64,000 nt of DNA from Rhodococcoides fascians A25f. Lineage in GTDB: Bacteria; Actinomycetota; Actinomycetes; Mycobacteriales; Mycobacteriaceae. Under the pieces are notes generated by a model that had not been told where the DNA came from, ran no database searches, and saw nothing but the letters and a program-made list of their open reading frames with translations. The number at the start of each line of letters is the position of its first letter. Position 1 is the first letter of the stretch. Positions 3,162 through 17,163 of the stretch are shown here, in pieces. The DNA is taken from positions 1,956,501-2,020,500 of the forward strand of contig NZ_CP049744.1 of assembly GCF_000760935.2 (NCBI RefSeq), in the 5' to 3' direction. A program made the position numbers and the translations under genes.

Positions 3162-3665
3162 ATGGTGACTCTGTCTGCAGTATCAGCACTGGTAGCGGTT
3201 TGCGTGCCGCTCATCGCGACCACTCTGTGGCGAATGCGGGATGAGAATCTCAGCAGCCGCGCGAGGACGCTCGCCAGGGCTTACGAGCGGAAGGAACGGC
3301 AATTCGTCTTCGCAGAGAACCTGGAAGCGATGGGTTTGCCCAACGAGGCAGCCAGGTCTCGTTACGACGGACTTTATGCGTTCTACCGGGTCGGTGTGCA
3401 ATGGAGCTATCGGCAGTCCAATCCGGCCGAGTTCGTAGCCGCCTTCGCCGGAGGGTTGGCCGTTCTCCTGGGTGTCGGCATGGCACTGATAGCTCCTCGG
3501 TCGTTACTTACATCGGTCCTCTCAGCCGGCCTGGTCTGCGTAGCCGCGGTGGCTTACGTAGCGTGGGGGTGGTTTGCGTTTCGTGAAGTTCGACGAACCA
3601 AGCCTCGAATCGAAGCGTTGGTCACGGATTTCGCATCGGTGTGCGGTTTAAGGGTGTCGCGCTGA
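3162..3665 (+). CDS. small membrane protein, unknown
   Basis: 167 residues from ATG at 3162 behind a good Shine-Dalgarno sequence (AGGGGG). There is one N-terminal hydrophobic segment (about 1-23), a charged Arg/Glu-rich region (about 25-80) that looks helical, and a hairpin of two transmembrane helices (about 90-110 and 114-136), followed by a short basic tail. I recognise no family. It stands alone, convergent with the acyl-CoA ligase whose stop is at 3701; an imperfect stem-loop at about 3683-3703 lies between them. Confidence 0.7.
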   Translation: MVTLSAVSALVAVCVPLIATTLWRMRDENLSSRARTLARAYERKERQFVFAENLEAMGLPNEAARSRYDGLYAFYRVGVQWSYRQSNPAEFVAAFAGGLAVLLGVGMALIAPRSLLTSVLSAGLVCVAAVAYVAWGWFAFREVRRTKPRIEALVTDFASVCGLRVSR

Positions 3666-3700
3666 GACGCAGCGAACGTCGACGTGGGAGAAGTGTTCTC

Positions 3701-5326
3701 CTACACCAACTCGATGACCTCCAACGCTCCGTCGGCGTGTGAGCTACGCAGTCGCTTCTTGTCGTATTTGCCGACACTGGTTTTCGGGACCTCGTCGATG
3801 AAGGTCCAACGTTCGGGCAATTGCCAATGCGCGACGCGACTGTCGAGGAACTCTTTCAGTTCCTCGGCCGTCACCGACGCGCCCTCGCGGACAACGACAG
3901 CCACCAGAGGCCGTTCGTCCCACTTGGCGTCCGGCACACCGATGACCGCGGCCTCCCGCACGGCCGGGTGTCCCATCACCTGGTTCTCGAGTTCCACCGA
4001 GGAAATCCACTCGCCACCGGACTTGATGATGTCCTTGGAGCGATCGGTCAGTCGTAGGTAGCCGCCTTCGGAGATCGTGCCCACGTCGCCGGTCCGCAGC
4101 CAGCCGTCGTCGAACTTGTCGTCTGCGTCGGCGCGGTAGTAGCTACCGGTGATCCACGGGCCACGCACCTCGAGTTCGCCGACGGTCTTGCCATCCCACG
4201 GCAACACCTCACCGGCATCGCCGACGAGGCGTGCTCGCACTCCGGCCACGAATCTGCCTTGTGTGCAGCGCAAGTCGAACTCGTCCTCCGGAGACAGGCC
4301 GGCGTCGGGCTTGCCGGAGGTGCCCAGTGGTGAGGTCTCGGTCATGCCCCACGCCTGCGAGATGTGCACGCCGTACTTCTCGTGGAATGCCTTCATCAGA
4401 CTCGGCGGGCACGCCGCACCGCCGACCACCACGTCACGCAGACTCGACAGGTCCGCTGGGTGCTCGTCCAGGTGAGCGAGCAGGGCCTGCCAGATCGTCG
4501 GAACCGCGGCCGCCGCCGTGGGACGCAACGTCGACATCATCTCCGCCAACGGAGCCGGCTGCAAAAACCTGTCGGGCATGATCAGCGACGCACCGACCAT
4601 CAGCGCTGCATAGGGCAAGCCCCACGACATCGCGTGGAACATCGGCACGATGGCCAAGACCTTGTCGGACTGCGCAATCGCCATCGCGTCGGTCATGCAG
4701 GCCTGCATCGAATGCAGGTAGATCGAGCGGTGCGAATACACGACCCCCTTGGGGTCACCGGTGGTGCCTGAGGTGTAACACATTGCGGCAGCGGATCGTT
4801 CGTCGAGCTCGGGCCAGTCGAACCCCTCCGGCTGACCCGCCAGCAGGTCCTCGTAGCCCAGTACTTCGATGCCGTCGGGTGCAGTGACCTGTGCCGGGTC
4901 GACGCCGACCACGATGAGATGCCGCACGGTCTCGAACGTCGGCAGCAAGGGTGTCAGCAGCGGCAGCAGGCTCGCGTCGGCGATGATCACCTGATCCTCG
5001 GCATGGTTGACGATGTAGGTGAGCTGCTCGGGGAAGAGCCGAATGTTCAGCGTGTGCAGCACCGCGCCCATCGCAGGAATCGCCATGTAGGCCTCCATGT
5101 GCGGGGCGTTGTTCCACATGAACGTGCCGACGCGCTGATCGTCGTCGACGCCGATCGACCGCAGACCGTGCGCCAGTTGCGCTGCCCGCCTGCCCAACTC
5201 CCCGAAGGTGACCGTAGTGGGGCCGCCGTCGGTCCAGGTGGTGATCTCGGCCGAGGAGTGAATGGACGTCCCGAATCGAACCAGCTGGCCGATGGACAGT
5301 GGGGTGTCCTGCATGGTGCTCTTCAT
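3701..5326 (-). CDS. AMP-forming fatty-acid--CoA ligase
   Basis: 541 residues, the usual length for the ANL superfamily. It should activate a carboxylic acid with ATP to an acyl-AMP and transfer it to CoA. Visible motifs: P-loop YTSGTTGDPKGVVYSHRS (about 184-201), WGMTETSPLG, LRTGDVG, the hinge RSKDIIKSGGEWIS and the C-terminal catalytic lysine in PKTSVGKYDKK. The KSGGEWIS form and the NIRLFPEQLTYIVNHAED segment resemble medium/long-chain FadD proteins of actinobacteria. The start at 5326 has a GCGAG-type ribosome site; a second ATG four codons on is possible. Chain length and role are unknown. It is monocistronic or the first gene of its unit. Confidence 0.9.
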   Translation of the reverse strand: MKSTMQDTPLSIGQLVRFGTSIHSSAEITTWTDGGPTTVTFGELGRRAAQLAHGLRSIGVDDDQRVGTFMWNNAPHMEAYMAIPAMGAVLHTLNIRLFPEQLTYIVNHAEDQVIIADASLLPLLTPLLPTFETVRHLIVVGVDPAQVTAPDGIEVLGYEDLLAGQPEGFDWPELDERSAAAMCYTSGTTGDPKGVVYSHRSIYLHSMQACMTDAMAIAQSDKVLAIVPMFHAMSWGLPYAALMVGASLIMPDRFLQPAPLAEMMSTLRPTAAAAVPTIWQALLAHLDEHPADLSSLRDVVVGGAACPPSLMKAFHEKYGVHISQAWGMTETSPLGTSGKPDAGLSPEDEFDLRCTQGRFVAGVRARLVGDAGEVLPWDGKTVGELEVRGPWITGSYYRADADDKFDDGWLRTGDVGTISEGGYLRLTDRSKDIIKSGGEWISSVELENQVMGHPAVREAAVIGVPDAKWDERPLVAVVVREGASVTAEELKEFLDSRVAHWQLPERWTFIDEVPKTSVGKYDKKRLRSSHADGALEVIELV

Positions 5327-5394: not shown

Positions 5395-6492
5395 TTACTC
5401 GGACGCGTGGTCGCGGGTACCTCGGATTCGGGCGTCGACCTCGCGAACGGTGTCTCGATAGATGTCCGACGCGGGATCGATGACCGCGAAATGGCCACCC
5501 GGCCCTTCGACATAGTCGACCGAATCCGGGCCGGCAACAGCGGCGGCGTAGTACGCCCGACTGATCTCGAGCAGGTTGGGGTCGTCCGACTCCGCACTCG
5601 CCACCAGATGCGGCACACCGAGCGGAAGCCTCGAGATCGGAGACGATGCCTCGTACGTCTCCTGCGCTCCGGCGAATCGGGCACCGATCGCATTCGACAC
5701 CGCGCCCTCGCCGAGCCAGCGCTCGTCGCCGACCCGCAGATCGAGTACACCGGCCAGGCTGACCGCAAGAGCAGGTGTCACGGGCTTTCCCACGGAATCG
5801 GCCGCGGCTCGCAGTGCGAGCTGACCGCCTGCTGAGTGGCCGAACAGAACTATTCGAGACAGATCCAGATCACCGGGTGCCGTCTCCAACGCTGCGAGCG
5901 CGGATGCGACATCGCCGGTCGTCGCATCCCACCCGTGTTCGTCGGGGCGACGGTATTCGACGTTCCAGGTCGCGAAGCCGCGCTCCGTCAGATCGACGGC
6001 CATCGCGTCCATCAGATCGAACTCCCAGCGCGCACGCCAGTACCCACCGTGAATGAGCACGGCAACGGGAAAGGGGCCATCACCGACCGGCACGCGCAGT
6101 TCGCCGCGTTGCTCCGGGTGATCCCCGTACGACAGGATCGTGCCGGGGTGGAAGCGGTGGAAATACACGCTGTCGATCGCGAATCGCAGACCGTCGAGTC
6201 CGCGGCCGCGAATGTGAGTGCGAATTCCATCGGATCGATCCGGTGCGCACTGCCCGAGGTCGACTCGAACGACACTGCTGTACGACGACGTGTCGACGGG
6301 AATTCTGTCGCCGGGAACAACGATTACCTCATCGGATCCGGTTTCGGCGTCGACGATTCCGCCGGACAGCCCGCGTGCGTCGAGGGCCCTGGCCACCAGT
6401 TCTTGCGCGGTGGCGAGATCGGCGAACACACCGGGCGCGGCGATGATGTCGATGTGCTTCGAGACGTCGTTCATGGGTTTCACGCTACCCAC
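5395..6492 (-). CDS. alpha/beta hydrolase with an N-terminal extension
   Basis: 365 residues. The catalytic part starts near residue 130: AVLIHGGYWR supplies the oxyanion hole (HGG), GHSAGGQLAL holds the nucleophilic serine, and GGHFAVID near the C terminus the histidine. The HGGYWR and GHSAGG combination is that of the BD-FAE / kynurenine-formamidase-like esterase group. The first 120 residues are not a typical hydrolase N terminus: segments such as PGVFADLATAQELVARALDARG look like a separate small domain with a hydrophobic, acidic composition. Substrate unknown. It lies behind the acyl-CoA ligase on the same strand with a 68-base gap, so co-transcription is possible. An alternative start is the second Met (residue 7). 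Confidence 0.82.
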   Translation of the reverse strand: MGSVKPMNDVSKHIDIIAAPGVFADLATAQELVARALDARGLSGGIVDAETGSDEVIVVPGDRIPVDTSSYSSVVRVDLGQCAPDRSDGIRTHIRGRGLDGLRFAIDSVYFHRFHPGTILSYGDHPEQRGELRVPVGDGPFPVAVLIHGGYWRARWEFDLMDAMAVDLTERGFATWNVEYRRPDEHGWDATTGDVASALAALETAPGDLDLSRIVLFGHSAGGQLALRAAADSVGKPVTPALAVSLAGVLDLRVGDERWLGEGAVSNAIGARFAGAQETYEASSPISRLPLGVPHLVASAESDDPNLLEISRAYYAAAVAGPDSVDYVEGPGGHFAVIDPASDIYRDTVREVDARIRGTRDHASE

Positions 6493-6545: not shown

Positions 6546-7430
6546 TTAGGCGTCGACAGCCTCGTTCAGCTCACGCAGACGGGGCAGTGCGCGGTTGGTG
6601 AGCAGGTCCTCGCGGGTCTCGGCGGAGACAGCCATGCTGTCCTTCCACAGTGACCGCCCTGCCATCGCTCCGCGGGCACCGTTGGCGACGGCGATGCGGA
6701 CCTGCTCGATGAACGTCTCGTGATCGACGCCCGCCGAGAGCACGGCCCACGGAACACCCTGTGCTGCTTCGGTCACCGCGGCACATGCCTCGGCGGAACC
6801 GGGGTAGGGAAGCTTGAGTACCTTGGCACCGCATTCGACCGAGATGCGGGTGGAGTCGGCGATGATCTTGCCGAAGCCGGCCTTGTAGTCCTCGTCGGAC
6901 TCGTTCTCGAGCTGGTAGGTCAGGATCTCGACGATGAGCAGCAGACCCTCGGCCGAGCAGGCCTTGACGAGGTCGCGGATCTCCTCGGCAACACGGGAAT
7001 CGACGCCCTGCTGCTCAGGGCGCATGTAGAACAGCATCTTGGCGACGTCTCCGCCGAGATCACGCACGACGCGGGGGGTCACGCCGTCGACGAAGCGGGT
7101 GTAGCGCAGACCGTCGGTCTCCTCGAAGCCCGAGGCATCCATGCCGACCACCAACGCGGTGTTGCGCGAGAGCACACCGTCGTCGACGATCTTCGGCAGT
7201 GCCACCTCCGGGTCCAGCAGGATCGCAGGCGCGTGATTGCCGAGGTAGCGAACCAGATCGGCCTTGGCCTCGGCGAGCTGCTCGACGGTGATCGAGCCCG
7301 GTCCGTCGGTGGCGTCCTTCATGACGGCCTTCATCCCGTTGCGCTGATCTCCGGCGACGATGAGCATGTTGCCGTCTGCGGTGGAGATGGCAGCCATTCC
7401 ACGACGTTCGAGGGTGGTGAGTTCGTTCAT
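6546..7430 (-). CDS. class I aldolase, LacD/YihT-like (ketose phosphate cleavage)
   Basis: 294 residues from ATG at 7430, chosen because GGAGAAGAAG lies directly upstream; a longer frame to 7469 would run into the operator palindrome. The fold is that of tagatose-1,6-bisphosphate aldolase (LacD) and 6-deoxy-6-sulfofructose-1-phosphate aldolase (YihT). Supporting segments are MLIVAGDQRNGM, the candidate Schiff-base lysine in CGAKVLKLPYP (Lys206), PWAVLSAGVD and the phosphate-binding NGARGAMAGRSLW. The pattern near the N terminus (DQR) and the SAGVD...GRSLW part look closer to YihT than to LacD. It would split a ketose 1-phosphate or bisphosphate into dihydroxyacetone phosphate and an aldehyde. 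It is last in the operon lacI-FGGY kinase-aldolase. An operator copy lies at 7469-7482, so it may also have its own control. Confidence 0.85.
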   Translation of the reverse strand: MNELTTLERRGMAAISTADGNMLIVAGDQRNGMKAVMKDATDGPGSITVEQLAEAKADLVRYLGNHAPAILLDPEVALPKIVDDGVLSRNTALVVGMDASGFEETDGLRYTRFVDGVTPRVVRDLGGDVAKMLFYMRPEQQGVDSRVAEEIRDLVKACSAEGLLLIVEILTYQLENESDEDYKAGFGKIIADSTRISVECGAKVLKLPYPGSAEACAAVTEAAQGVPWAVLSAGVDHETFIEQVRIAVANGARGAMAGRSLWKDSMAVSAETREDLLTNRALPRLRELNEAVDA

Positions 7431-7468
7431 CTTCTTCTCCTGGTGGGTGTTGGGGTCGAGCGCAGTCA

Positions 7469-7482
7469 AGACAACGTTGTCT
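7469..7482. promoter_or_regulatory. LacI-type operator, copy 1 (upstream of aldolase)
   Basis: AGACAACGTTGTCT, a perfect 14-bp palindrome with the central CG typical of LacI-family operators. It lies in the 70-base gap between the FGGY kinase and the aldolase, 39 bases before the aldolase start. The same 14 bases recur at 9917-9930. Confidence 0.75.
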
Positions 7483-7500
7483 CACTGCAGAAATGTGGGC

Positions 7501-8856
7501 TCAGATTTCTATGAGCGTCAGTAGGCGGGCGGCGAACAGTGCTGCACCGTAGGCGGTGTCCTGCGAGCGGGTCGAGACCGAAACGCCGGGCAGTACCTGA
7601 GCTCGTGCGTCTCGCACGCTGGCCATCCCGGCCCAGCCGCCGGTGAGCAATGTCGTCTTGGCAGGCGGCACCTCGGCGTCGAGTGCCTCGATGAGTCGAG
7701 CTACTTCGTCGTTGCCGTGCAACAGAATCGAACGGAACAGCTCCGCTGAATCGATACCGTCGGTGCGGACCGTGATGGACAGAACGCCGTCGTCGTTGCG
7801 GGCACCCGCGATGTCGATACCGCCGTCGGTGAACGGCCCACCTTCAGGCAGAGCGCACACTCGCTGATCCAGTAGATCGCGTCCGGTTCGATCGTTGATG
7901 TCGCACAGCTGCAACGCCCGTCGCATCAGCAAGCCGGTCTTGACTCCGGCAACGAGTACGTGTTGGCCCGGCACCACGTGGCGGACCGAGTTGATGAGAT
8001 GCTCGGCGAGTCTGCTCCGCGCGGCCGTGGTCAAGGGAGCGTCGAGTACCCGCAGCAGAACCTCGGCGGTGCCCATCGACACGTGGTACCGGTCGTGAGG
8101 GATCGCTCCGCCGGACACTGCGGACACGAGATGGTCGTGACCGGCCACAGTGAGGCGAGCGCCGGCGATGGACTCGGGAAGAGTTGCCGCGTCGGCGGTT
8201 CCGAGGTCTGTTCCGGCGTCGACCAAGGGCGGAATGAAATCGGCTCCGACGCCCAAGTGCGTCAACATCTCCGACCAGGGTTCGCCGCTGTCCTGATCGA
8301 GTAGTCCGGTGCGCGAACTCAGCGAGTAGTCGGCCACGGCGCGGCCGCCGAGGGACAGTACGACGAACTCCGGCAGGTTGAACCAGCGAAGCCCGTTCAA
8401 GCTCAGTCCGTTGTCGCGAAGGTGTGCGATCTTGACGACGGAGACCTGCACGCCGACGGGAAGGCCCGTCTTGCCGGCGAACTGATCGCGCAATTCGGCC
8501 GGCAGGTTGTCGACCTGCTGCTGACCGCGCGGATCGAACCAGGCGAAGGCCGGCGCGCGGACAACGTTGTCTTCATCGAGAAGGAAGCCCGTTTCGCCCA
8601 TCCCGGACACTGCGATGGCGGCGATGCGGGCGGCCGGATCGCCGGTGACGTCGGGCAGTCGACGCGCGACGGCGTCGAGCAGCTGCCCGATGGTGGCCAG
8701 CAAGTCCTCTGCGGCGAGGTCGGTGGTTCCGCCCGGGCCGTGCCGCCACGGTGTGGGGCTCTGCTCGATGAGCAGTTCGGTGCCGGCATCGTCGGTGACG
8801 AGTACTTTGACGCCGGTGCTCCCGAGGTCCAGTCCCGCAACAAGTCTGGGGTTCAC
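7501..8856 (-). CDS. FGGY-family carbohydrate kinase
   Basis: 451 residues, slightly short for the family. The N-terminal FGGY domain begins with LVAGLDLGSTGVKVLVTDD (phosphate loop), with FAWFDPRG and the RTGLLDQDSGEPW region further on. The C-terminal domain has GHDHLVSAVSGGAI, which holds the likely catalytic Asp, then MGTAEVLLR, and TLLTGGWAGMASVRDARAQV for adenosine binding. FGGY kinases phosphorylate sugars, ketoses or polyols. With the aldolase directly downstream, a ketose 1-phosphate product is the natural inference. The gap to the upstream lacI gene is 10 bases. An operator-like palindrome lies inside this gene at 8560-8571. Confidence 0.88.
   Translation of the reverse strand: MNPRLVAGLDLGSTGVKVLVTDDAGTELLIEQSPTPWRHGPGGTTDLAAEDLLATIGQLLDAVARRLPDVTGDPAARIAAIAVSGMGETGFLLDEDNVVRAPAFAWFDPRGQQQVDNLPAELRDQFAGKTGLPVGVQVSVVKIAHLRDNGLSLNGLRWFNLPEFVVLSLGGRAVADYSLSSRTGLLDQDSGEPWSEMLTHLGVGADFIPPLVDAGTDLGTADAATLPESIAGARLTVAGHDHLVSAVSGGAIPHDRYHVSMGTAEVLLRVLDAPLTTAARSRLAEHLINSVRHVVPGQHVLVAGVKTGLLMRRALQLCDINDRTGRDLLDQRVCALPEGGPFTDGGIDIAGARNDDGVLSITVRTDGIDSAELFRSILLHGNDEVARLIEALDAEVPPAKTTLLTGGWAGMASVRDARAQVLPGVSVSTRSQDTAYGAALFAARLLTLIEI
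8560..8571. promoter_or_regulatory. LacI-type operator, intragenic copy
   Basis: GACAACGTTGTC, the 12-bp core of the operators at 7469 and 9917, lies inside the FGGY kinase gene. It could serve as an auxiliary operator for DNA looping. It could also be chance, since it sits in coding sequence for ordinary residues. Confidence 0.45.
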
Positions 8857-8866
8857 GGAGTTGGTC

Positions 8867-9871
8867 TCATTTCTGTACGGGTAGGGGGAGGGCGTGCGAG
8901 AGTCTTTCCACCAGCGTGGTGGGCGCGACTTGTTGCTCCGGTTCGAGATACGGATCGTCGAACCGCTGAACCAGGCGATCGAATGCGAGTGTGCCGATGC
9001 GATACGGGTCTTGGTCTATGCAGGTCACCGACGGGCTGACGGCGTCGGCGAGCGAGAAGTTACCGAACGAGACCATCGCCACGTCGGTGCGGTCGATTTC
9101 GTGCAGCACCGACACCACGGCCGTGGCATGTCGCGCATTGGCGACGAAGAAGGCGGTCGGCGGATTGCGCAGTGCCAGTAGCTTCTTGACGACGGGGCGC
9201 ACCGAATCCGCGGCATGCGACACCGGAGGAGCGAGTGCGGCCTCGGGCTTCTGGCCGAGGTCCGCGAGCACGTCGAGGTACGCCTGCCGGCGCAACTGGG
9301 CGGTCTGCAGTCGATCGTCGAAGCCGAGCAACGCAATTCGGGTGTGCCCGCTTGCCATCAACTTCTCGACGGCGCGCTTGGCAGCACCGTAATCGTCCAC
9401 GATGACCGAATCGAATCCCGAGATCGAGCGGTCGATGGTCACCGTGGGCAACGTTCGACGCCGCGGCACGAGGAAATCGCTGTGATCGCCGACCGGCGCA
9501 AGGATGATCCCTCGCACATGTTGCCCGGCAAGAAGGGCCAGCTGATCACGCTCGCGCTGGGCGTCGAACCCGGTGCTGCCGACGATGACCGCGAGACCGT
9601 GTTCGAGCGCACGATCCTCCACGGCACTGACCAGGGATGCGAAGAAGACGTCGTCGATGGAGTCGACGATGATGCCGATCGTGTTGCCGGACCCCGATTT
9701 CAGTGACCGAGCAGCAGAATTGGGAACGTAGTTGAGCGTCTGCACCGCGGCTTCGACGCGCTCACGCAACTCCGGCAAGACCGTGTCCACGCCGTTGACG
9801 ACGCGTGAGACGGTCTTGAAGCTGACGCCTGCCAATGCGGCGACGTCTTTGATGCTTGCGCGCTCGGTCAC
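8867..9871 (-). CDS. LacI-family transcriptional regulator (first)
   Basis: 334 residues from GTG at 9871. This start puts the DNA-binding domain at residues 1-60 (RASIKDVAALAGVSFKTVSRV helix-turn-helix; NYVPNSAARSLKSG hinge helix) and gives the same length as the second LacI protein of the cluster. A longer frame to 9922 would place the start codon inside the operator palindrome. The rest is a periplasmic-binding-protein-like effector domain (TIGIIVDSIDDVFFASLV; ARHATAVVSVLHEIDRTD). It heads the operon with the FGGY kinase and the aldolase and is divergent from the P-loop kinase. It probably represses both sides through the palindrome at 9917-9930, with a sugar or sugar phosphate as inducer (inference). 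Confidence 0.9.
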   Translation of the reverse strand: MTERASIKDVAALAGVSFKTVSRVVNGVDTVLPELRERVEAAVQTLNYVPNSAARSLKSGSGNTIGIIVDSIDDVFFASLVSAVEDRALEHGLAVIVGSTGFDAQRERDQLALLAGQHVRGIILAPVGDHSDFLVPRRRTLPTVTIDRSISGFDSVIVDDYGAAKRAVEKLMASGHTRIALLGFDDRLQTAQLRRQAYLDVLADLGQKPEAALAPPVSHAADSVRPVVKKLLALRNPPTAFFVANARHATAVVSVLHEIDRTDVAMVSFGNFSLADAVSPSVTCIDQDPYRIGTLAFDRLVQRFDDPYLEPEQQVAPTTLVERLSHALPLPVQK

Positions 9872-9916
9872 GTGAACTCTCGATCGGAGGAGTGTGCTCG
9901 CGGTATCAACAGTGCG

Positions 9917-9930
9917 AGACAACGTTGTCT
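9917..9930. promoter_or_regulatory. LacI-type operator, copy 2 (between divergent lacI and P-loop kinase)
   Basis: AGACAACGTTGTCT, identical to 7469-7482. It lies in the divergent promoter region, 46 bases before the lacI start and 3 bases before the first possible start of the kinase gene, the usual place for autorepression and control of both directions. Confidence 0.78.
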
Positions 9931-9933
9931 TGT

Positions 9934-10527
9934 ATGATTCCCTCTATGACTCATGTCTGTCAAGACGTCTCCGTGATCGATCGCGAACGGCTGCCGGTTC
10001 TGGTGGTTGCCGGTGCTGCGGGAAGTGGCAAGACGACTCTCGGTCGAGAGCTTGCCAGACGGTTCGGTACCGCTCTGCTCGACTTGGACACGCTCACCAA
10101 TCCGCTTCTCGACGAACTGGATTCGTTGCTGGACGGCCCACACTGGAACAGTGCGGGCCCACACTCGGAACGCATCCGAGTCGGCCGATACGCCGTACTG
10201 CTCGCTGCTGCGCGGGACCTCGTGGAGATCGGTCAGCGCCCCGTTCTGGTCGCACCGTTCACCCGCGAATTGACTGCCGGCACGGAGTGGGAACGACTGG
10301 TCGCGCACCTGGCCCCCGCTGCATCGTTGGTCGTGCACGTCGACGGGTCGCCGGAGCTGTTGGCGCGCAGGCGTGCTGCGCGTGGGGCGGAGCGTGATGC
10401 CCATCGGCCGGTGGATGCTCCGGCGGCCAAGCCGCTCGTTCCCCATCTGCGGGTCGACGCCGAACTGTCGACCCCACAGCAGGTCGATCTGGTTGCGCAC
10501 GCTCTAGAGGATCAGTCGCAGCGGTGA
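9934..10527 (+). CDS. P-loop kinase (gluconokinase / AAA_33-like)
   Basis: 197 residues from ATG at 9934; ATG 9946 and GTG 9973 are alternatives. Walker A is VAGAAGSGKTT (about residues 26-35). The rest has the layout of small metabolite kinases: LLDLDTLTNPLL after the P-loop, an arginine-rich lid (LLARRRAARGAERDA) and a C-terminal helix. It lacks the PLTDxDRxPW segment of true gluconokinase, so the substrate is open; a sugar or polyol is likely from context. It is divergent from the first lacI gene. The operator at 9917-9930 touches its start, so its mRNA has a very short leader or none. Its end overlaps the convergent second lacI gene by 16 bases. Confidence 0.72.
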   Translation: MIPSMTHVCQDVSVIDRERLPVLVVAGAAGSGKTTLGRELARRFGTALLDLDTLTNPLLDELDSLLDGPHWNSAGPHSERIRVGRYAVLLAAARDLVEIGQRPVLVAPFTRELTAGTEWERLVAHLAPAASLVVHVDGSPELLARRRAARGAERDAHRPVDAPAAKPLVPHLRVDAELSTPQQVDLVAHALEDQSQR

Positions 10528-11519
10528 TCGGTTCCGGGCGTGCAGGATCGACGCTCGATCAGCTCGACGCCGAGGATGTTGCGGCGCTTGTAGCGCTTGC
10601 TCGGATTCTCGATCCGTCCCAGTAGTCGCTCGATGGCCAACCGGCCGAGGCGAGCGGGATTCTGATCGATCACCGTCACCGGTGGCATCACTGCATCGGC
10701 AAGGGGGAAGTCGCCGAATCCGACGAACGCCAGATGTAGCAGATTCATCTGCTGCAGAACAGGCACGCATGCCATCGCCACTCGCGCGTTGGACAGAAAC
10801 AATGCGGTAGGCGGACTTTCGAGTGCAGTCAGGTCGGTCAGTGCCACCCGGGCATCCTCGCGGTCCAACACACCCAGAGCGACGAGAGTGTCGTCGAAGT
10901 CGATTCCGCGCGCCTGCAACGACTCCCGATACCCCTCGAGCCGGTTTCGGCTGGTCGGGATGCCGGCACTGTCGCCGATGACTGCGATGCGGGTGTGTCC
11001 CAGATCGAGCAGGTGGTCGGTGGCCAACACCGCCCCGCCGTGATCGTCGTCGACGAAGCTGTCTGCTTTGAGTCCGTCGGGAGCCCGATCGACGAACACC
11101 GTGGGGGTCTTGTCGATCCAACGCTCCAGATAGGAGTGGTGTGCACCGGTCGGCGCGATGATCAAGCCGCTCAGCTGTCTACGCAGCAGCGACTCCACCA
11201 GAGCCTGCTCCTGATCGCCGTCGTGACCGAGGCTGGTGACCAGAACGGCCATGTCGTCCTGTCGCGCTCGTTCCTCCACCGCGCGTGCAATGGAGGAGAA
11301 GAAAGGATCGTCGATATCAGGGACGGCGACTCCGATGGCTGCCGCCTGACCGTTGCGGAACGACGTGGCCATCGTATTGGGCACGTAGTTCAGCGAATTC
11401 AAGGCCTCGGTGACGCGGGCACGGGTATCGGGGTCGACGTGAGGGTCGTTGTTGTACACCCGTGAGACGGTCTTGGCGCTGACCTTGGCCAGCGCGGCGA
11501 CGTCTTGCATGGTGGTCAT
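10512..11519 (-). CDS. LacI-family transcriptional regulator (second)
   Basis: 335 residues. N-terminal helix-turn-helix TMQDVAALAKVSAKTVSRVY (about 2-21), hinge NYVPNTMATSFRNG, then the ligand-binding core (IGVAVPDIDDPFFSSIARAV, TDHLLDLGHTRIAVIGD). It is related to the first LacI of the cluster but clearly distinct. It follows the SDR gene on the same strand with a 31-base gap, so SDR-lacI is probably one unit read from the promoter region at 12.3-12.5 kb. The likely operators there are the ATGTCA-type palindromes, not the AACGTT type. The 3' end overlaps the convergent P-loop kinase gene. Confidence 0.9.
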   Translation of the reverse strand: MTTMQDVAALAKVSAKTVSRVYNNDPHVDPDTRARVTEALNSLNYVPNTMATSFRNGQAAAIGVAVPDIDDPFFSSIARAVEERARQDDMAVLVTSLGHDGDQEQALVESLLRRQLSGLIIAPTGAHHSYLERWIDKTPTVFVDRAPDGLKADSFVDDDHGGAVLATDHLLDLGHTRIAVIGDSAGIPTSRNRLEGYRESLQARGIDFDDTLVALGVLDREDARVALTDLTALESPPTALFLSNARVAMACVPVLQQMNLLHLAFVGFGDFPLADAVMPPVTVIDQNPARLGRLAIERLLGRIENPSKRYKRRNILGVELIERRSCTPGTDHRCD

Positions 11520-11550
11520 GATCTACGCCCGTCTGTTCGTCATCGTCTCG

Positions 11551-12276
11551 TCAGCGACTGGTGTAGCCGCCATCGACTGGCAACGACACTCCGGTCACCA
11601 TGGAAGCATCATCGCTCAGCAGGAAGGCAATCGGCGCGGCAATCTCGTCTTCGGTGGCCCACCTTCCCAGCGGCATCTGAGCCAGGAACGGCTCCTCGAT
11701 CTCGGGGCGACCCCAGTAGAACGCAGACATCTCTGTCATCACGACCGTCGGGTTGACGCCGTTGACTCGAATTCCGTGTCGGCCGAGCTCGAGTGCGGAG
11801 ACGCGAGTGATGTTGTCCAGGGCCGCTTTCGAGGAGCCGTACGAGATATGGCCGGTGAGGGCGACCAGGCTGGCTTGACTCGAGACGTTGACGATGGCAC
11901 CGGCACCCGCGGCGATCATGGCCGGGACGGTGTATTTGATGACCAACAGTGCGCCGCGCGCATTGATGGCGATGACCTTGTCGAAGATCGAGATGTCGGT
12001 GTCCTGAGGTGTGGCGATCTCGCCGCCGAATCCTGCGCAGTTCACCACGCCGTACAGCTCTAGGCCTTCGACAGCCTCGCGGACGCTGTCCTCGGAGGTG
12101 AGATCGAAAGCCAGAGGCGTTGCGCCGGTCTCGTCGGCCAGCTTGTCCAGGGCATCCACCGATTGGCCGGCCGCGACGACCTCGGCACCGTCGGCCACCA
12201 ACCGCCGCACGGTCGCCGAGCCGATGCCTCCGCTGGCACCTGTCACCAAGATCTTGCGGCCGTCGAACTTCGCCAT
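11551..12276 (-). CDS. short-chain dehydrogenase/reductase, DCXR (L-xylulose reductase)-like
   Basis: 241 residues from ATG at 12276 (AAGG eight bases upstream); GTG at 12291 is the alternative. Classical SDR motifs: TGASGGIGSAT (Rossmann), NCAG, VSSQAS and the catalytic YGSSK. The C-terminal stretch VNPTVVMTEM followed by PLGRWAT and TGVSLPVDGGY closely resembles dicarbonyl/L-xylulose reductases (VNPTVVMT...PLGKFA), which interconvert ketoses and sugar alcohols with NAD(P). In this cluster it probably oxidises an imported polyol, or reduces a ketose, beside the mannitol-dehydrogenase-family enzyme. It heads a unit with the second lacI gene. Confidence 0.87.
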   Translation of the reverse strand: MAKFDGRKILVTGASGGIGSATVRRLVADGAEVVAAGQSVDALDKLADETGATPLAFDLTSEDSVREAVEGLELYGVVNCAGFGGEIATPQDTDISIFDKVIAINARGALLVIKYTVPAMIAAGAGAIVNVSSQASLVALTGHISYGSSKAALDNITRVSALELGRHGIRVNGVNPTVVMTEMSAFYWGRPEIEEPFLAQMPLGRWATEDEIAAPIAFLLSDDASMVTGVSLPVDGGYTSR

Positions 12277-12306
12277 GGGGTCTACCTTCACTGTCTCCGA
12301 ATGGTC

Positions 12307-12322
12307 ATGTCATCGATGTCAT
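12307..12322. promoter_or_regulatory. operator-like element ATGTCATCGATGTCAT
   Basis: Imperfect 16-bp palindrome, 30 bases before the SDR start. It has the same half-site and spacing as the perfect copy at 12491-12506, with mismatches in one arm. Confidence 0.55.
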
Positions 12323-12342
12323 CGACTCTATGGAGTCCGTAT

Positions 12343-12358
12343 ATGTCACCGGTGTCAT
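12343..12358. promoter_or_regulatory. operator-like element ATGTCACCGGTGTCAT
   Basis: Differs from the perfect palindrome at 12491-12506 by one base in the right arm. Its start is 36 bases, about 3.5 helical turns, from that of the first element. Confidence 0.6.
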
Positions 12359-12490
12359 GGACGGTACCCCAGCCCGGTTGCATCAGCGTCGAAAATCGCG
12401 ATATTGCGTATCAACCCAGTTCAGGGACGGTACCTGCCGGTCCGATATCGGCCTCCCGCAGGCACGAAACGGAAGGTGTGGCGCGTGTCC

Positions 12491-12506
12491 ATGTCACCGG
12501 TGACAT
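12491..12506. promoter_or_regulatory. LacI-type operator ATGTCACCGGTGACAT
   Basis: Perfect 16-bp palindrome with a central CG, about 175 bases before the ABC ATPase start. It is the best candidate for the binding site of the second LacI protein on the importer side. Confidence 0.7.
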
Positions 12507-12681
12507 GAATTTTCGCGAAACGCGTGACAATGCGAGTTGTGTGGGTCACACTCGTTAACACAGCGAGCCCCGAAGGGAGCTCGACCTGCTTCGCAGACCA
12601 CGTCCTCGGACCGTACTGCGGGCGCCGGTGGGGGTGTCCATCCCGCACTCGAAGCTTTCTCGATTCGACCTAGGAGTATCC

Positions 12682-13461
12682 ATGGCCAGCGTTGCACCTG
12701 TTGCGACACCGATCCTCGAAGCGAGGGGATTGTCGAGGAGTTTCGGAAACGTGCGCGCCCTCGACGATGCCGACTTCGACATCTACCCGGGTGAGGTCGT
12801 CGCCCTCATCGGGGACAACGGCGCAGGCAAGTCGACGATGGTCAAGGCGCTCTCGGGCAGCCTGGCCGTCGACACCGGCGAGATCCTGTTCGACGGCACC
12901 GCGGTCGATCTCGACAGTCCCACCGTTGCAGCAGAACTCGGCATCGAGACGGTGTTCCAGGATCTTGCTCTCGCGCCGCACCTCAACGCGCAGCAGAACA
13001 TGTTTCTCGGACGCGAACTGCCGGCGAAAGGGCTGCTCGGCCATCTCGGTTTTCTCGACGTCTCCACGATGCGCAAGCAGTCGCAGGACGCGTTGAACGA
13101 ACTCGGAGCCACCGTGCGTAGCCTGACCGTCCCGGTCGGAGCGATGTCGGGTGGGCAGCAACAAGCCATTGCCATCGCGCGAGCCGTCGCCTGGGCCAAG
13201 GGCGTCGTCTTTCTCGACGAGCCGACCGCAGCGCTCGGAGTGGTACAGACCCGCAACGTGCTCGACACCATTCGCCGCGTGGCGGACAGGGGAGTGGCCG
13301 TGGTGTTCATCAGCCACTCCATGCCGCACGTGATGGAAGTTGCCGACCGGGTTCAGGTGCTGCGTATGGGCAAGCGCGTGGCCACCCTCGACGCCAAGAA
13401 CACGACCATGGAAGAACTCGTCGGCGCGATGACCGGCGCAACCACCGGAGCGACACGATGA
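12682..13461 (+). CDS. sugar ABC importer, ATPase (single nucleotide-binding domain)
   Basis: 259 residues from ATG at 12682, five bases after TAGGAG; an upstream GTG at 12628 is less likely. Walker A GDNGAGKST (44-52), signature MSGGQQQAIAIA, Walker B VVFLDEPTAAL and switch FISHSMPHV are all intact. Ribose-type ATPases (RbsA) usually have two ATPase halves in about 500 residues. This one has a single half like FrcA, so it should act as a homodimer. It energises uptake through the downstream permease and lipoprotein. The permease gene overlaps its end by four bases. Confidence 0.93.
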   Translation: MASVAPVATPILEARGLSRSFGNVRALDDADFDIYPGEVVALIGDNGAGKSTMVKALSGSLAVDTGEILFDGTAVDLDSPTVAAELGIETVFQDLALAPHLNAQQNMFLGRELPAKGLLGHLGFLDVSTMRKQSQDALNELGATVRSLTVPVGAMSGGQQQAIAIARAVAWAKGVVFLDEPTAALGVVQTRNVLDTIRRVADRGVAVVFISHSMPHVMEVADRVQVLRMGKRVATLDAKNTTMEELVGAMTGATTGATR

Positions 13462-14555
13462 CGAACCAAACCATCAGCCCCTCCCTCGAGCCGATGCCGC
13501 CCGGAGACACACCGTCTCGACACTCCTTCGATCTCGTCGTAGCGCTCCGTAAGTTGGCCCGAGTTCAGGTGTTCCAGATCGTGCTCGTATTGGCTGCGAT
13601 CTGCATCGTGTTCTCGATCATGGCTCCCGGCAGCTTCCCCGAGTGGGGCAACATCCGCCAGATCATCCAGAACGTATCCATCCTGGCCGTTCTCGGCATC
13701 GGCATGACGTTCGTCATCGTCACCAGCGGCATCGATCTCTCGGTCGGCTCCGTTCTCGTCTTTTCCGGGGTCGTCTCGGCCAAGACCATGGCCGCGATCG
13801 GCGGCGACGGATGGGGAGTCGCCGCCGTCGGAATCGTGGTGGCACTGGGGTGTGGCCTCTGCTGGGGATTGCTCAACGGCTTCCTGATCGGTAAGGCCAA
13901 CGTGCCTCCGCTGATCGTGACTCTCGGGACCCTGGGCGGCGCTCTCGGGCTCTCACAGGTCATCACCGGAGGTGTCGACATCCGCGACGTACCACCGGTT
14001 CTGGTCGATACCATCGGCTACGGCAACTTTCCGGCCACCACCATCCCGTTGATCTCGAGCATCGCTCTGGTGTTGGTCGTCATCTTCGGAATCGTGCTGC
14101 ATCGCACCAAATTCGGCCTCTACACGTTTGCCGTCGGCTCCAAAGAGCAGTCTGCTCGACGTGTCGGCATCAAGGTGGACATGCACCTGGTCAAGGTCTA
14201 CGCACTCTCCGGTACTCTCGCCGGGCTCGCGGGCATTCTGTCTCTGTCCCAGTACGGCACCACCGCCATCGCCGGTCAGTCGCAGACCAACCTCAATGTC
14301 ATTGCGGCAGTGGTCATCGGTGGAACGAGCCTCTTCGGTGGCATCGGAACCATGTTCGGCACCGTCGTCGGACTGTTCATCCCTGCCGTGCTGCAGAACG
14401 GTTTCGTCATCGTCGGAGTCCAGCCGTTCTGGCAGCAGGTCGCCGTCGGTGCTGTCCTCATCGCAGCGGTCTACTTCGACCAGCGTCGACGCGACGCAGC
14501 TAGCCGAGGTCAATCGCCCAGCTCCCTCAAGAAACTCTGGTCCCGAAGTCCCTAG
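13458..14555 (+). CDS. sugar ABC importer, permease (RbsC/FrcB type)
   Basis: 365 residues; the ATG overlaps the ATPase stop. A cytosolic N terminus of about 30 residues is followed by roughly nine to ten transmembrane helices. The segments FVIVTSGIDLSVGS, GLLNGFLIGKANVPPLIVTLGT, AVGSKEQSARRVGIKV (the loop that docks the ATPase) and VVIGGTSLFGGIGTMFGTVVG are hallmarks of the branched-chain/ribose permease family. It should form the homodimeric channel of the importer. Confidence 0.94.
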   Translation: MTNQTISPSLEPMPPGDTPSRHSFDLVVALRKLARVQVFQIVLVLAAICIVFSIMAPGSFPEWGNIRQIIQNVSILAVLGIGMTFVIVTSGIDLSVGSVLVFSGVVSAKTMAAIGGDGWGVAAVGIVVALGCGLCWGLLNGFLIGKANVPPLIVTLGTLGGALGLSQVITGGVDIRDVPPVLVDTIGYGNFPATTIPLISSIALVLVVIFGIVLHRTKFGLYTFAVGSKEQSARRVGIKVDMHLVKVYALSGTLAGLAGILSLSQYGTTAIAGQSQTNLNVIAAVVIGGTSLFGGIGTMFGTVVGLFIPAVLQNGFVIVGVQPFWQQVAVGAVLIAAVYFDQRRRDAASRGQSPSSLKKLWSRSP

Positions 14556-14610
14556 CTCCGGCCAGCTTCGAAAATCCCTCTATCGCAAACCCTTTACAAG
14601 AAAGTCGACC

Positions 14611-15582
14611 ATGATCACATCACGCACCGCCGTCGTTGCACTGAGTGTCGCTTCGGTCTCCGCCATGTTCCTGGCGGGTTGTTCGTCCGACTCCGGAAGT
14701 GGTGGCGGCAGCGGCAACATCGCCTTCATCCAGGGCGTCAGTGGCGACGAGTTCTACATCAGCATGCAGTGCGGAATCGAAGCTGCGGCCAAGGATGCGG
14801 GCGTCACCGTCGACACCCAGGGCCCGGTGAAGTTCGATCCCACCCTGCAGAAGCCGATCGTGGATTCGGTTGTCGCATCGCGGCCGTCGGCGATCCTGAT
14901 CGCACCCACCGACGTCGCCGCCATGCAGGCGCCCCTCGCGGCAGCCGCCAAAGCGGGCATCAAGGTCGTCCTCGTCGACACCACTCTGGAAGACCCGTCC
15001 ATCGCGGTCTCCTCCATCTCGTCCGACAACAAGGGCGGTGGAGCAGAAGCGTTCAATGCGATCGAGCGTCTCAACCCCTCCGGCGGCAAGGTGCTCGTCA
15101 TCTCCACCGATCCCGGCATTTCCACCGCAGACGCCCGAGTGGAAGGTTTCGAGGAAGCCGTTGGGGCCAACCCTGCCTTCGACTACCTCGGCGTGCAGTA
15201 CAGCCACAACGATCCGGCCGAAGCTGCCCGCTTGGTCTCGGCTGCCCTGGCCAAGGACCCCGACATCACCGGCATCTTCGCCGCGAACACGTTTGCAGCC
15301 GAGGGCACCGCGACCGGAGTTCGGCAGGCGGGCAAGCAGGATCAGGTCAAGATCATCGGCTTCGACGCAGGCCCCGCACAGGTGAAGCAGCTTCGTGAGG
15401 GAACAGTCCAGGCTCTGATCGCGCAGCAGCCCGACACCATCGGAACGGACGGCGTGGCGCAGGCCATGGCCGCCATCAACGACCAGCCGGTGACCGCCGA
15501 GATCTCGACCGGCTTCCACGTCATCACCGCCGACAACATCGACGGCGAGGGCGCTCAGTACGTCTACAAGTCGTCCTGCTGA
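14611..15582 (+). CDS. sugar-binding lipoprotein of the ABC importer
   Basis: 323 residues from ATG at 14611. It has an N-terminal lipoprotein signal with lipobox LAGC (Cys about 24), then a Ser/Gly-rich tether and a type I periplasmic-binding domain of the ribose/LsrB/xylitol class (NIAFIQGVSGDEFYISM; RPSAILIAPTD; GIFAANTFAAEG; KIIGFDAGPAQVKQL). It would capture the substrate outside the membrane and deliver it to the permease. It sits 55 bases after the permease. A strong stem-loop follows at 15608-15652, which may keep its mRNA level above that of the downstream gene. Confidence 0.93.
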   Translation: MITSRTAVVALSVASVSAMFLAGCSSDSGSGGGSGNIAFIQGVSGDEFYISMQCGIEAAAKDAGVTVDTQGPVKFDPTLQKPIVDSVVASRPSAILIAPTDVAAMQAPLAAAAKAGIKVVLVDTTLEDPSIAVSSISSDNKGGGAEAFNAIERLNPSGGKVLVISTDPGISTADARVEGFEEAVGANPAFDYLGVQYSHNDPAEAARLVSAALAKDPDITGIFAANTFAAEGTATGVRQAGKQDQVKIIGFDAGPAQVKQLREGTVQALIAQQPDTIGTDGVAQAMAAINDQPVTAEISTGFHVITADNIDGEGAQYVYKSSC

Positions 15583-15607
15583 TCCCTGACGTGTAACCCC
15601 TTGAACT

Positions 15608-15652
15608 GCGGTGGTGCTCCTGGTGGCAGAACATGCCCGGGAGCGCCACCGC
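15608..15652 (+). terminator. stem-loop between binding protein and dehydrogenase genes
   Basis: Arms 15608-15620 and 15640-15652 pair over 13 bp with one G-U pair and a 19-base loop. It lies 26 bases past the binding-protein stop and before the next start, without a T-run, so it fits an mRNA-stabilising or partially terminating hairpin better than a full terminator. Confidence 0.5.
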
Positions 15653-15684
15653 TCACCACGTTCATCCGACCGCGAGGACCTGTC

Positions 15685-17163
15685 ATGATCGAGCTTCGTC
15701 GCACCACATCGAATGATCTGCCTGCGGGCGTAGCGAAGCCCGAGTACGACGCGGACGAACTGCACTGCGGCGTGGTGCATTTCGGGGTCGGTGCGTTTCA
15801 CCGCGCGCACCAGGCCGTCTATTTCGATCGCTTGCTCTCCGCCGGTCATCTCGACTGGGCGCTGTGCGGAGTGGGAGTCCTGCCGGGAGACAAGCGAATC
15901 GGGGAGGTCCTCGACGCTCAGGATCATCTCTACACGGTCGTGACCGTGGACCCCGATGGCCGACGCGATGCGCAGGTTGTCGGTTCGGTCGCAGATTTTG
16001 TTTTCGCACCCGAGGATCCGCAGGGGGTGCTCGACGTGCTCAGCTCACCCGCCACGATGATCGTGTCGCTGACCATCACCGAGGCCGGCTACGGCGTGAA
16101 CGATGTGACCGGGGTGTTCGAGCCGACCGATCCCGCGGTGCTCGCCGACCTCGAGGACCTCTCCACGCCGTCGAGTGTCTTCGGTTTCCTCACCGTTGCT
16201 CTCGCCACCCGTCGCTTCCATGGAATCCCGCCGTTCACCGTGATGTCCTGCGACAACATCGTCCACAACGGAACGGTCACTCGCACCGCGCTGACGTCCT
16301 TCGCGCGCCACCACGACAGCGATCTGGCCGACTGGATCGACGCCACAGCCGCGTTCCCTAATTCGATGGTCGACCGCATCACCCCGGCCACGACGCCCAC
16401 CGTCGTCGACGACCTGCGACGTGACTTCGGCATCGACGACCGCTGGCCGGTCCAGTCGGAATCGTTCTCCCAGTGGGTACTCGAAGACTCCTTCTCGTTC
16501 GGGCGACCACCCTTCGCCGACGTCGGCGTGCAACTCGTGACCGACGTCGCCCCCTACGAGCACATGAAACTGCGTCTGCTCAACGGTTCTCATCAGGCCA
16601 TGAGCTACCTCGGTATCCTCGCCGGTTATACCCATGTGCACGAGGTCATGGCCAGTCCTGACCTGCGCGAATTCGTCGCGTCGTACATGCGTGCCGAGGC
16701 GGCCCCGACGCTGGCACCGGTACCGGGAATCGACCTGGATGAGTACATCGAGCAACTGCTGCAACGATTTTCGAGTCTGGCGGTTCGTGACACTCTCGAA
16801 CGTCAGATCGTCGACGCATCTGTCCGAATCCCGAAATTCGTTCTGCCGGTGATCCGAGACCGCCTTGCCGAGGACCGATCCGTCGATCATGCCGCTCTGG
16901 TCCTCGCCGCATGGTGCGGAGTCCACGAGCGCGGGGACGTTCCGATGGTCGATGCCGATTCCGAACGACTGCAACGATTGTCGTGGGAAGACCACGACAA
17001 CCCCGGAGCGTTTCTGACCAACCGGGCGGTGTTCGGGGATCTTGCGGGCAGCCCGAGACTACGAGGTGCGTACCAGCGAGCCAAGCGTTCGCTGCAGGAC
17101 AGCGGTGCGCGTGGTGCTGTGCGCCGGGTGCTGGAGCAGTCGTCGGCTGGTCAGACCTTGTAG
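15685..17163 (+). CDS. mannitol-dehydrogenase-family polyol dehydrogenase
   Basis: 492 residues from ATG at 15685 (GAGGACC upstream), the usual length for mannitol 2-dehydrogenase and related polyol or hexuronate enzymes. The N-terminal Rossmann segment is VVHFGVGAFHRAHQAVYFD. The catalytic region is EHMKLRLLNGSHQAMSYLG, with the family's Lys...Asn...His pattern. It would oxidise a sugar alcohol such as mannitol, arabinitol or a relative to a ketose with NAD. It is the last gene of the importer unit. The stop at 17161-17163 overlaps the convergent thioesterase gene by 13 bases. Confidence 0.9.
   Translation: MIELRRTTSNDLPAGVAKPEYDADELHCGVVHFGVGAFHRAHQAVYFDRLLSAGHLDWALCGVGVLPGDKRIGEVLDAQDHLYTVVTVDPDGRRDAQVVGSVADFVFAPEDPQGVLDVLSSPATMIVSLTITEAGYGVNDVTGVFEPTDPAVLADLEDLSTPSSVFGFLTVALATRRFHGIPPFTVMSCDNIVHNGTVTRTALTSFARHHDSDLADWIDATAAFPNSMVDRITPATTPTVVDDLRRDFGIDDRWPVQSESFSQWVLEDSFSFGRPPFADVGVQLVTDVAPYEHMKLRLLNGSHQAMSYLGILAGYTHVHEVMASPDLREFVASYMRAEAAPTLAPVPGIDLDEYIEQLLQRFSSLAVRDTLERQIVDASVRIPKFVLPVIRDRLAEDRSVDHAALVLAAWCGVHERGDVPMVDADSERLQRLSWEDHDNPGAFLTNRAVFGDLAGSPRLRGAYQRAKRSLQDSGARGAVRRVLEQSSAGQTL

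Follow-up and report, generated by a model that had tools for sequence, protein, structure and literature searches.

The 64,000-nucleotide stretch of Rhodococcoides fascians A25f analyzed here (contig NZ_CP049744.1, positions 1,956,501 to 2,020,500; hereafter the window) contains, at positions 6546–17163, a gene cluster built around a class I aldolase (ALD) and an FGGY-family kinase (KIN). The cluster, found in plant-associated soil bacteria, most likely serves to take up an unusual plant sugar or form it from its sugar alcohol, to phosphorylate it, and to split it into ordinary metabolites. A more specific reading, for which we judge the balance to be about even, is that of a unit devoted to the breakdown of a ketose with a lyxo/manno-pyranose ring, D-mannoheptulose or D-tagatose, with an optional polyol arm. 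The cluster is a real unit: both the adjacency of KIN and ALD and the codistribution of four of its genes exceed chance. Within the 5.9-Mb host genome, its gene order is ALD, KIN, and LACI1 (minus strand); PLK (plus); LACI2 and SDR (minus); and ATP, PERM, SBP, and MDH (plus). The genes were scanned against Pfam and NCBIfam profiles and compared with Protein Data Bank (PDB) chains by phmmer, and they are labeled as follows.

6546..7430, minus: ALD, class I aldolase of the DeoC/LacD family, distinct subfamily (PF01791, 72.2 bits; cut-off 23.8)
7501..8856, minus: KIN, FGGY-family kinase, complete two-domain model (PF00370, 74.4 bits)
8867..9871, minus: LACI1, LacI regulator, assigned to palindrome B (PF00356, PF13377)
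9946..10527, plus: PLK, small P-loop kinase (PF13671, AAA_33)
10512..11519, minus: LACI2, LacI regulator, assigned to palindrome A (Pfam)
11551..12291, minus: SDR, short-chain dehydrogenase of polyol/ketose type (PF13561, 185 bits)
12682..13461, plus: ATP, CUT2 importer ATPase, single nucleotide-binding domain (PF00005, 107 bits)
13458..14555, plus: PERM, CUT2 permease (PF02653, 123 bits)
14611..15582, plus: SBP, sugar-binding protein with a 5dkv-like pocket (PF13407)
about 15676..17163, plus: MDH, polyol dehydrogenase of the mannitol-dehydrogenase family (PF01232, PF08125; PDB 1lj8, 426 bits)

Each enzyme class named in the first-pass annotation of this DNA (ABC importer, SDR, mannitol dehydrogenase, FGGY kinase, P-loop kinase, and class I aldolase) is confirmed by Pfam and NCBIfam. 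Beyond that annotation, the cluster holds two LacI regulators (8867-9871 and 10512-11519, minus strand) and five operator-like palindromes.

The kinase–aldolase unit and its regulators

With ALD as the query, 43 loci were found and fetched from other genomes (fetched loci carry L-numbers). The closest relatives of ALD (96–99% identity) stem from nine Rhodococcus/Rhodococcoides loci, L003–L011, one of them R. fascians NBRC 12155; these are herein called the R. fascians group, a label of our own. KIN lies directly upstream of ALD on the same strand in 40 of the 43 loci, with 22–202 bases separating the aligned ends, and relatives of MDH (at least 45% identity) and SDR (at least 60%) occur in 30 and 18 of these loci, which are of limited length. 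In four loci (L012–L015), KIN and ALD form one open reading frame of 746–757 amino acids. An ALD domain is likewise present in 19 of the best 120 of 873 KIN homologues, three of these 19 being partial. ALD, KIN, SBP, and PLK are each found in the identical 16 of 37 congeneric genomes, which points to joint inheritance instead of independent events, since the genes neighbor each other and the genomes are related. ALD is found in one genome of an even sample of 396 from the phylum, the window's own, and KIN in nine, eight of them at 34–39% identity. The parts absent beside KIN–ALD in Herbiconiux and Plantibacter sit ~18 kb away in all four regions fetched (L082–L085). These carry SBP (73–74%), PERM, ATP, a LACI1-like gene (48–49%), PLK, and MDH. 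Three of them also have SDR along with a separate LACI2-like gene, and the fourth region stops at the contig end.

KIN contains the motifs DLGSTG, GHDH, and GGW and shows full-length VIA matches. Against the named FGGY equivalogs (XylB, FucK, RhaB, GlpK, LsrK), all seven listed scores fall far under the cut-offs, and in the tree KIN belongs to a separate clade (100/99), apart from the six E. coli FGGY kinases included. An FGGY kinase had been called an unusual partner for this aldolase family. This holds for class I LacD-type aldolases and not for aldolases or aldolase-like enzymes at large, as annotated neighbors show for FucK/FucA, RhaB/RhaD, and LsrK/LsrF. FucK/FucA and RhaB/RhaD likewise pair an FGGY kinase with an aldolase that forms dihydroxyacetone phosphate (DHAP); their kinases differ from KIN as given above, and FucA and RhaD are of the class II Aldolase_II type. 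In the LsrK/LsrF system, an FGGY kinase shares its locus with a CUT2-type importer and a related barrel enzyme, yet the system acts on autoinducer-2 and employs a thiolase instead of an aldolase; ALD is 19% identical to LsrF.

ALD forms a subfamily of its own together with aldolases from five rhizobial-type plasmid loci (L055-L057, L068, L069). These loci carry the same importer type, an ALD, and a ROK protein running into a P-loop domain; the fusion was recognized by Pfam on L055, and the P-loop domain was aligned in all five. Identity of ALD to these relatives is 44–46% in alignment (two measured) and 42–46% over all five by tblastn, compared with 25.1% to E. coli YihT, 24.6–26.0% to two LacD proteins, and 31.6% to the DUF2090 protein 8tnf. 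By phmmer, 8tnf scores 95 bits, the YihT chains 72–80, and the LacD chains 54–68, placing YihT slightly above LacD. The scores of ALD lie under the cut-offs of both the PRK12858 tagatose 1,6-diphosphate aldolase subfamily (NF009498; 150.6 bits, cut-off 184) and the LacD equivalog TIGR01232 (60.3 bits, cut-off 432.2). In the tree, 11 rows (10 actinobacterial ones and L036, a metagenome-assembled genome labeled Pseudomonadota) and the five rhizobial ALDs form one clade (98/98), apart from LacD (100/99) and the DUF2090-like rows (99/97). YihT is the nearest named neighbor (94/90), on a branch so long (3.48) that its position is unsure. The claim that ALD is closer to YihT than to LacD thus finds no support: identity is ~25% to each, and the clade is one shared with rhizobial aldolases. 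By eye, the lysine of the ALD segment KLPYP aligns with a lysine in YihT, LacD, and the DUF2090 rows; it is kept in all alignment rows, and we take it to be the Schiff-base lysine. A DQR motif and Ser-Gly and Gly-Arg segments of the family are likewise kept (by eye), and we presume for them the roles that they have in this aldolase family. The arginine of DQR may act at the distal anion.

ALD would, as a YihT-like sulfofructose 1-phosphate aldolase, place the cluster in sulfosugar breakdown, which is highly improbable. The shared Pfam family, the slight phmmer advantage of YihT, and its place as nearest named row speak for it; the low identity and the very long YihT branch speak against it. 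Among the scanned cluster genes, to which the search was confined, none encodes a partner like YihS, YihV, or YihU (sulfoquinovose isomerase, sulfofructose kinase, and sulfolactaldehyde enzyme, respectively), and a special closeness to sulfoquinovose breakdown finds no support. The LacC/LacD tagatose 6-phosphate pathway shares a PF01791 class I aldolase, the product DHAP, and tagatose-type C3–C4 stereochemistry. It differs by phosphotransferase uptake and another kinase, as seen from the neighboring genes, and by LacD being 25–26% identical to ALD; LacC is a PfkB-type kinase. The sulfoglycolytic Embden–Meyerhof–Parnas pathway (YihV/YihT) also combines a kinase with a PF01791 aldolase giving DHAP; its PfkB kinase, sulfonated substrate, and other neighbors set it apart, and its aldolase is 25% identical to ALD.

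Two kinds of CG-centered palindrome accompany the genes, type A (ATGTCAYCGRTGWCAT, three copies) and type B (RAGACAACGTTGTCTY, two copies).

7468..7483: type B, AAGACAACGTTGTCTC, between the KIN stop and the ALD start
9916..9931: type B, GAGACAACGTTGTCTT, between LACI1 and PLK
12307..12322: type A, ATGTCATCGATGTCAT, between SDR and ATP
12343..12358: type A, ATGTCACCGGTGTCAT, between SDR and ATP
12491..12506: type A, ATGTCACCGGTGACAT, perfect, between SDR and ATP

At one mismatch or fewer, type B matches only its two cluster sites in the whole genome, and type A has two sites beyond the cluster; the patterns read backwards, which served as controls, give no genome match for A and one on each strand for B. 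Within the window, at two mismatches or fewer, none of 100 shuffles reached the observed count for either type. Among the 43 loci, at the same threshold, type B is present in 16 of 16 loci with LACI1 (at least 55% identity; L019 and L035 need the full two mismatches) and in none of the 27 without, and type A in 39 of 40 with LACI2 (at least 50%) and in none of the three without. The single miss, L012, is cut before that promoter. These counts come from related loci and were not treated as independent for probabilities. Type B occupies the KIN–ALD gap throughout L003–L011. In Rhodococcus, type A precedes SDR and the importer; in Microbacterium, Plantibacter, and Herbiconiux, it stands in front of KIN–ALD, and in Arthrobacter, it heads the run kinase-ATP-PERM-SBP-MDH-SDR-PLK-ALD. 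Because of this shifting position, one regulator family, with LacI binding predicted from sequence, seems to span all steps from import and oxidation to phosphorylation and cleavage. This predicted shared control is relevant to the refuting condition set in the first-pass annotation, an aldolase that is not induced together with the importer.

A weak third type B site (two mismatches) lies inside KIN at 8558-8573, with a counterpart at the matching place in L003–L011. A stop codon, a palindrome, AGGAG, and ATG are all accommodated between KIN and ALD, so the likely ALD start is the ATG at 7430, behind AGGAG, and not the TTG at 7469.

Binding protein and polyol arm

The clue to the substrate comes from SBP. 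Its top PDB match is 5dkv (39% identity overall), with which all 11 ribose-type contact positions are equal, or 12 of 12 with one more. The same residues match in 22 of 22 SBPs from the 43 loci (at least 280 aligned residues), in the four SBPs of L082–L085, and in four of five rhizobial SBPs; the control structures 4wut, 5dte, and 2ioy share 6, 4, and 5 of the 11, respectively. The rhizobial SBPs match 5dkv at 538–566 bits (three of three tested) and are its near-orthologues. The ligand in 5dkv, whose title names Avis_5339, is presumably alpha-D-tagatopyranose. D-Mannose, D-tagatose, and D-mannoheptulose share the manno/lyxo ring configuration, and mannoheptulose has the same C3–C4 stereochemistry as tagatose. 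Avi_5339 is reported to bind mannoheptulose, cited as an unpublished observation (Leyn et al. 2017, PMC5507952). Mannoheptulose and perseitol are described as abundant in avocado (PMC6606701).

The polyol arm, from which the first-pass annotation had the pathway start, is supported as an optional part. The MDH/SDR step looks real, as the cluster's own MDH (at least 63% identity) is found in 15 of 16 congeners with ALD; a paralogue near 50% occurs in 36 of 37 genomes. It is optional, as none of the five rhizobial loci holds an MDH relative, and distant SDR matches occur in two of them (L056 and L069; 29% and 35%). The best NCBIfam match of MDH is D-arabinitol 4-dehydrogenase (342 bits, under the cut-off of 600), and in L019, from a metagenome-assembled genome of Pseudonocardiales, a xylulokinase-like FGGY gene (350 bits, cut-off 380) stands beside SDR and an MDH relative next to KIN–ALD (10897-14537). 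Owing to these two matches, a pentitol route keeps some weight, in which D-arabinitol or a related pentitol would be converted to D-xylulose or similar, and ALD would split xylulose 1-phosphate to DHAP and glycolaldehyde. This route is improbable: the SBP pocket is that of 5dkv, unlike the ribose-type pocket of 2ioy, PLK would be left without a role, and the rhizobial loci lack MDH.

Predicted pathway and its alternatives

The pathway proposed for the manno/lyxo ketose builds on the observed gene content, fusion, co-occurrence, palindromes, and domain families; each of its reactions is a prediction. SBP, PERM, and ATP would import a sugar or polyol, as judged from SBP homology. MDH and SDR would oxidize the matching polyol (perseitol/volemitol, or galactitol/talitol type) to the ketose. 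KIN, whose family is clear, would phosphorylate the ketose at a position discussed below, and PLK would add a second phosphate. ALD, as a Schiff-base aldolase, would split C3–C4 to yield DHAP and erythrose 4-phosphate (heptulose) or glyceraldehyde 3-phosphate (tagatose). LACI1 would control the kinase–aldolase part via palindrome B, and LACI2 the importer–dehydrogenase part via palindrome A. The scheme put forward earlier, from polyol over ketose and ketose 1-phosphate to DHAP and an aldehyde, survives as a single pathway leading from a kinase towards a DHAP-forming class I aldolase, for which fusion, adjacency, operators, and co-occurrence argue; its 1-phosphate step is weighed here.

With weak commitment, at slightly less than even confidence, we assign the distal position (C7/C6) to KIN and C1 to PLK; the substrate of ALD would then be a 1,7- or 1,6-bisphosphate. 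PLK is present at 40% identity or more in 33 of 43 loci and diverged (31–33%) in three Arthrobacter loci; five Herbiconiux/Plantibacter loci lack it beside KIN–ALD and have it elsewhere in their genomes. With loci and their genomes counted together, 41 of 43 have PLK, which makes a ketose bisphosphate no less likely than a ketose 1-phosphate. It was not found in L035 (a 3.7-kb contig, genome not searched) or, apart from a weak match, in L036. Compared by hhalign, PLK matches the P-loop domain of the rhizobial ROK fusion protein with 97.1% and a score of 72.6, against 43.9 for GntK and 37.8 for CysC, a modest contrast since both controls were single sequences. The bisphosphate is favored by this ROK–PLK fusion, by the tendency of ROK kinases to phosphorylate the far end of a sugar, and by PLK being nearly always present.

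The KIN–ALD fusion (four of 43 loci; 19 of the best 120 KIN homologues) favors a ketose 1-phosphate, as it suggests that the product of KIN is handed to ALD. Herein, KIN would be a ketose 1-kinase, ALD would release DHAP together with free erythrose or glyceraldehyde, and this aldose would be phosphorylated by PLK, as in liver fructolysis. FucK and RhaB, which phosphorylate at C1, adjoin aldolases by annotation. YihT, of the same Pfam family as ALD, cleaves a 1-phosphate (PMC9594981). The rhizobial PLK is fused to a ROK kinase, however, not to ALD. This route is a serious contender that we hold to be somewhat doubtful. We know of no small P-loop aldose kinase of the PLK kind, which counts against it. 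Rather unlikely is its specific form for plant C7 sugars (perseitol/mannoheptulose), in which actinobacteria would run a kind of fructolysis on a heptulose: a ketose 1-kinase of the FGGY family, fused in some species to the class I aldolase, would supply heptulose 1-phosphate for cleavage, and PLK would serve as a new small P-loop erythrose kinase.

Several points weigh against the bisphosphate pathway for a manno/lyxo ketose. The fusion just described fits a ketose 1-phosphate better, and the extra xylulokinase-like gene of L019 hints at pentitols. KIN was not found near ALD in three Arthrobacter loci (L032, L034, L042; the search covered the locus only, not the genomes). In L082–L085, no B site within two mismatches is present in the fetched stretch despite the LACI1-like genes (48–49%), and that of L084 has no A site. 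The ligand claim goes back to the unpublished observation cited in one paper and to the ligand presumed for 5dkv, whose title is cut short before naming it. More distant SBPs share the pocket in loci without KIN or ALD, namely in Embleya (L070, 11/12) and Deinococcus (L071, 9/12). Both loci look mannose-related, the former by an AGE-type epimerase and a PfkB-type kinase (from reading of its open reading frames), the latter by GH125/GH38; hence, the pocket does not fix the sugar. A manno/lyxo ring fits the SBPs of the window, the rhizobia, Embleya, and Deinococcus alike. Finally, the roles of the actinobacterial proteins are read from sequence and gene context. At 5721-15658 of L071, the Deinococcus importer with its related SBP stands beside GH125, GH38, and ROK genes, probably as a mannoside locus.

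The closest described system is a predicted one. For Rhodobacteraceae, Leyn et al. (PMC5507952) describe bin08, whose importer is accompanied by a COG3684 aldolase and two kinases, one of the ROK and one of the COG0529 type, and propose conversion of mannoheptulose 7-phosphate to the 1,7-bisphosphate and on to DHAP and erythrose 4-phosphate. The rhizobial form corresponds to this prediction, and the actinobacterial cluster is a variant of it. Compared by description, not by sequence, both have an importer with an Avi_5339-like SBP, a COG3684/PF01791 aldolase, and a second small kinase. The first kinase is a ROK protein there and an FGGY protein here, fused to the aldolase in some relatives; FGGY is not mentioned in that text. 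The window cluster further adds two polyol dehydrogenases and two LacI regulators. Among the matches listed from open-licence PubMed Central papers, none describes the actinobacterial form (FGGY kinase, sometimes aldolase-fused, polyol dehydrogenases, and two palindrome sets), and for bacterial breakdown of C7 plant sugars the published prediction was found and biochemistry was not. The actinobacterial version thus adds a natural FGGY kinase–aldolase fusion in some relatives, a polyol arm, and two sets of operator-like palindromes. A vague polyol cluster is narrowed to a short substrate list and single-protein assays, which would name kinase, aldolase, and P-loop kinase families now annotated only generically.

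Flanking genes and variant arrangements

Of the flanking genes, the esterase (5395-6492) has a counterpart only in L003–L011 among the 43 loci, and the acyl-CoA ligase (3701-5326) likewise, apart from a 27% match in L019; neither is counted in the unit. In many relatives, PLK corresponds to the N-terminal half of a larger protein whose other half is a HAD phosphatase. The C-terminal HAD half is missing from PLK of the window and the R. fascians group; Pfam shows it in L012 and L017, and the gene length suggests it for another 21 loci. A PRK09270-type kinase, absent from the window, lies upstream of the importer genes in eight loci (L041:3410-4132; L032 near 3253-3900). In Plantibacter L037 (3249-7147), a rhamnulokinase-like FGGY gene, a class II aldolase, and two SDRs precede KIN–ALD, with palindrome A before KIN; by gene order, L038–L040 and L045 are arranged likewise. 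In Rhodococcoides trifolii (L012:2504-7570), an extra gene set is inserted between PLK and LACI1. It comprises mannonate-dehydratase-like and deoxy-rhamnonate-hydrolase-like genes (NCBIfam, under the cut-offs) and, by reading, GntR-, SDR-, and SMP-30-like genes.

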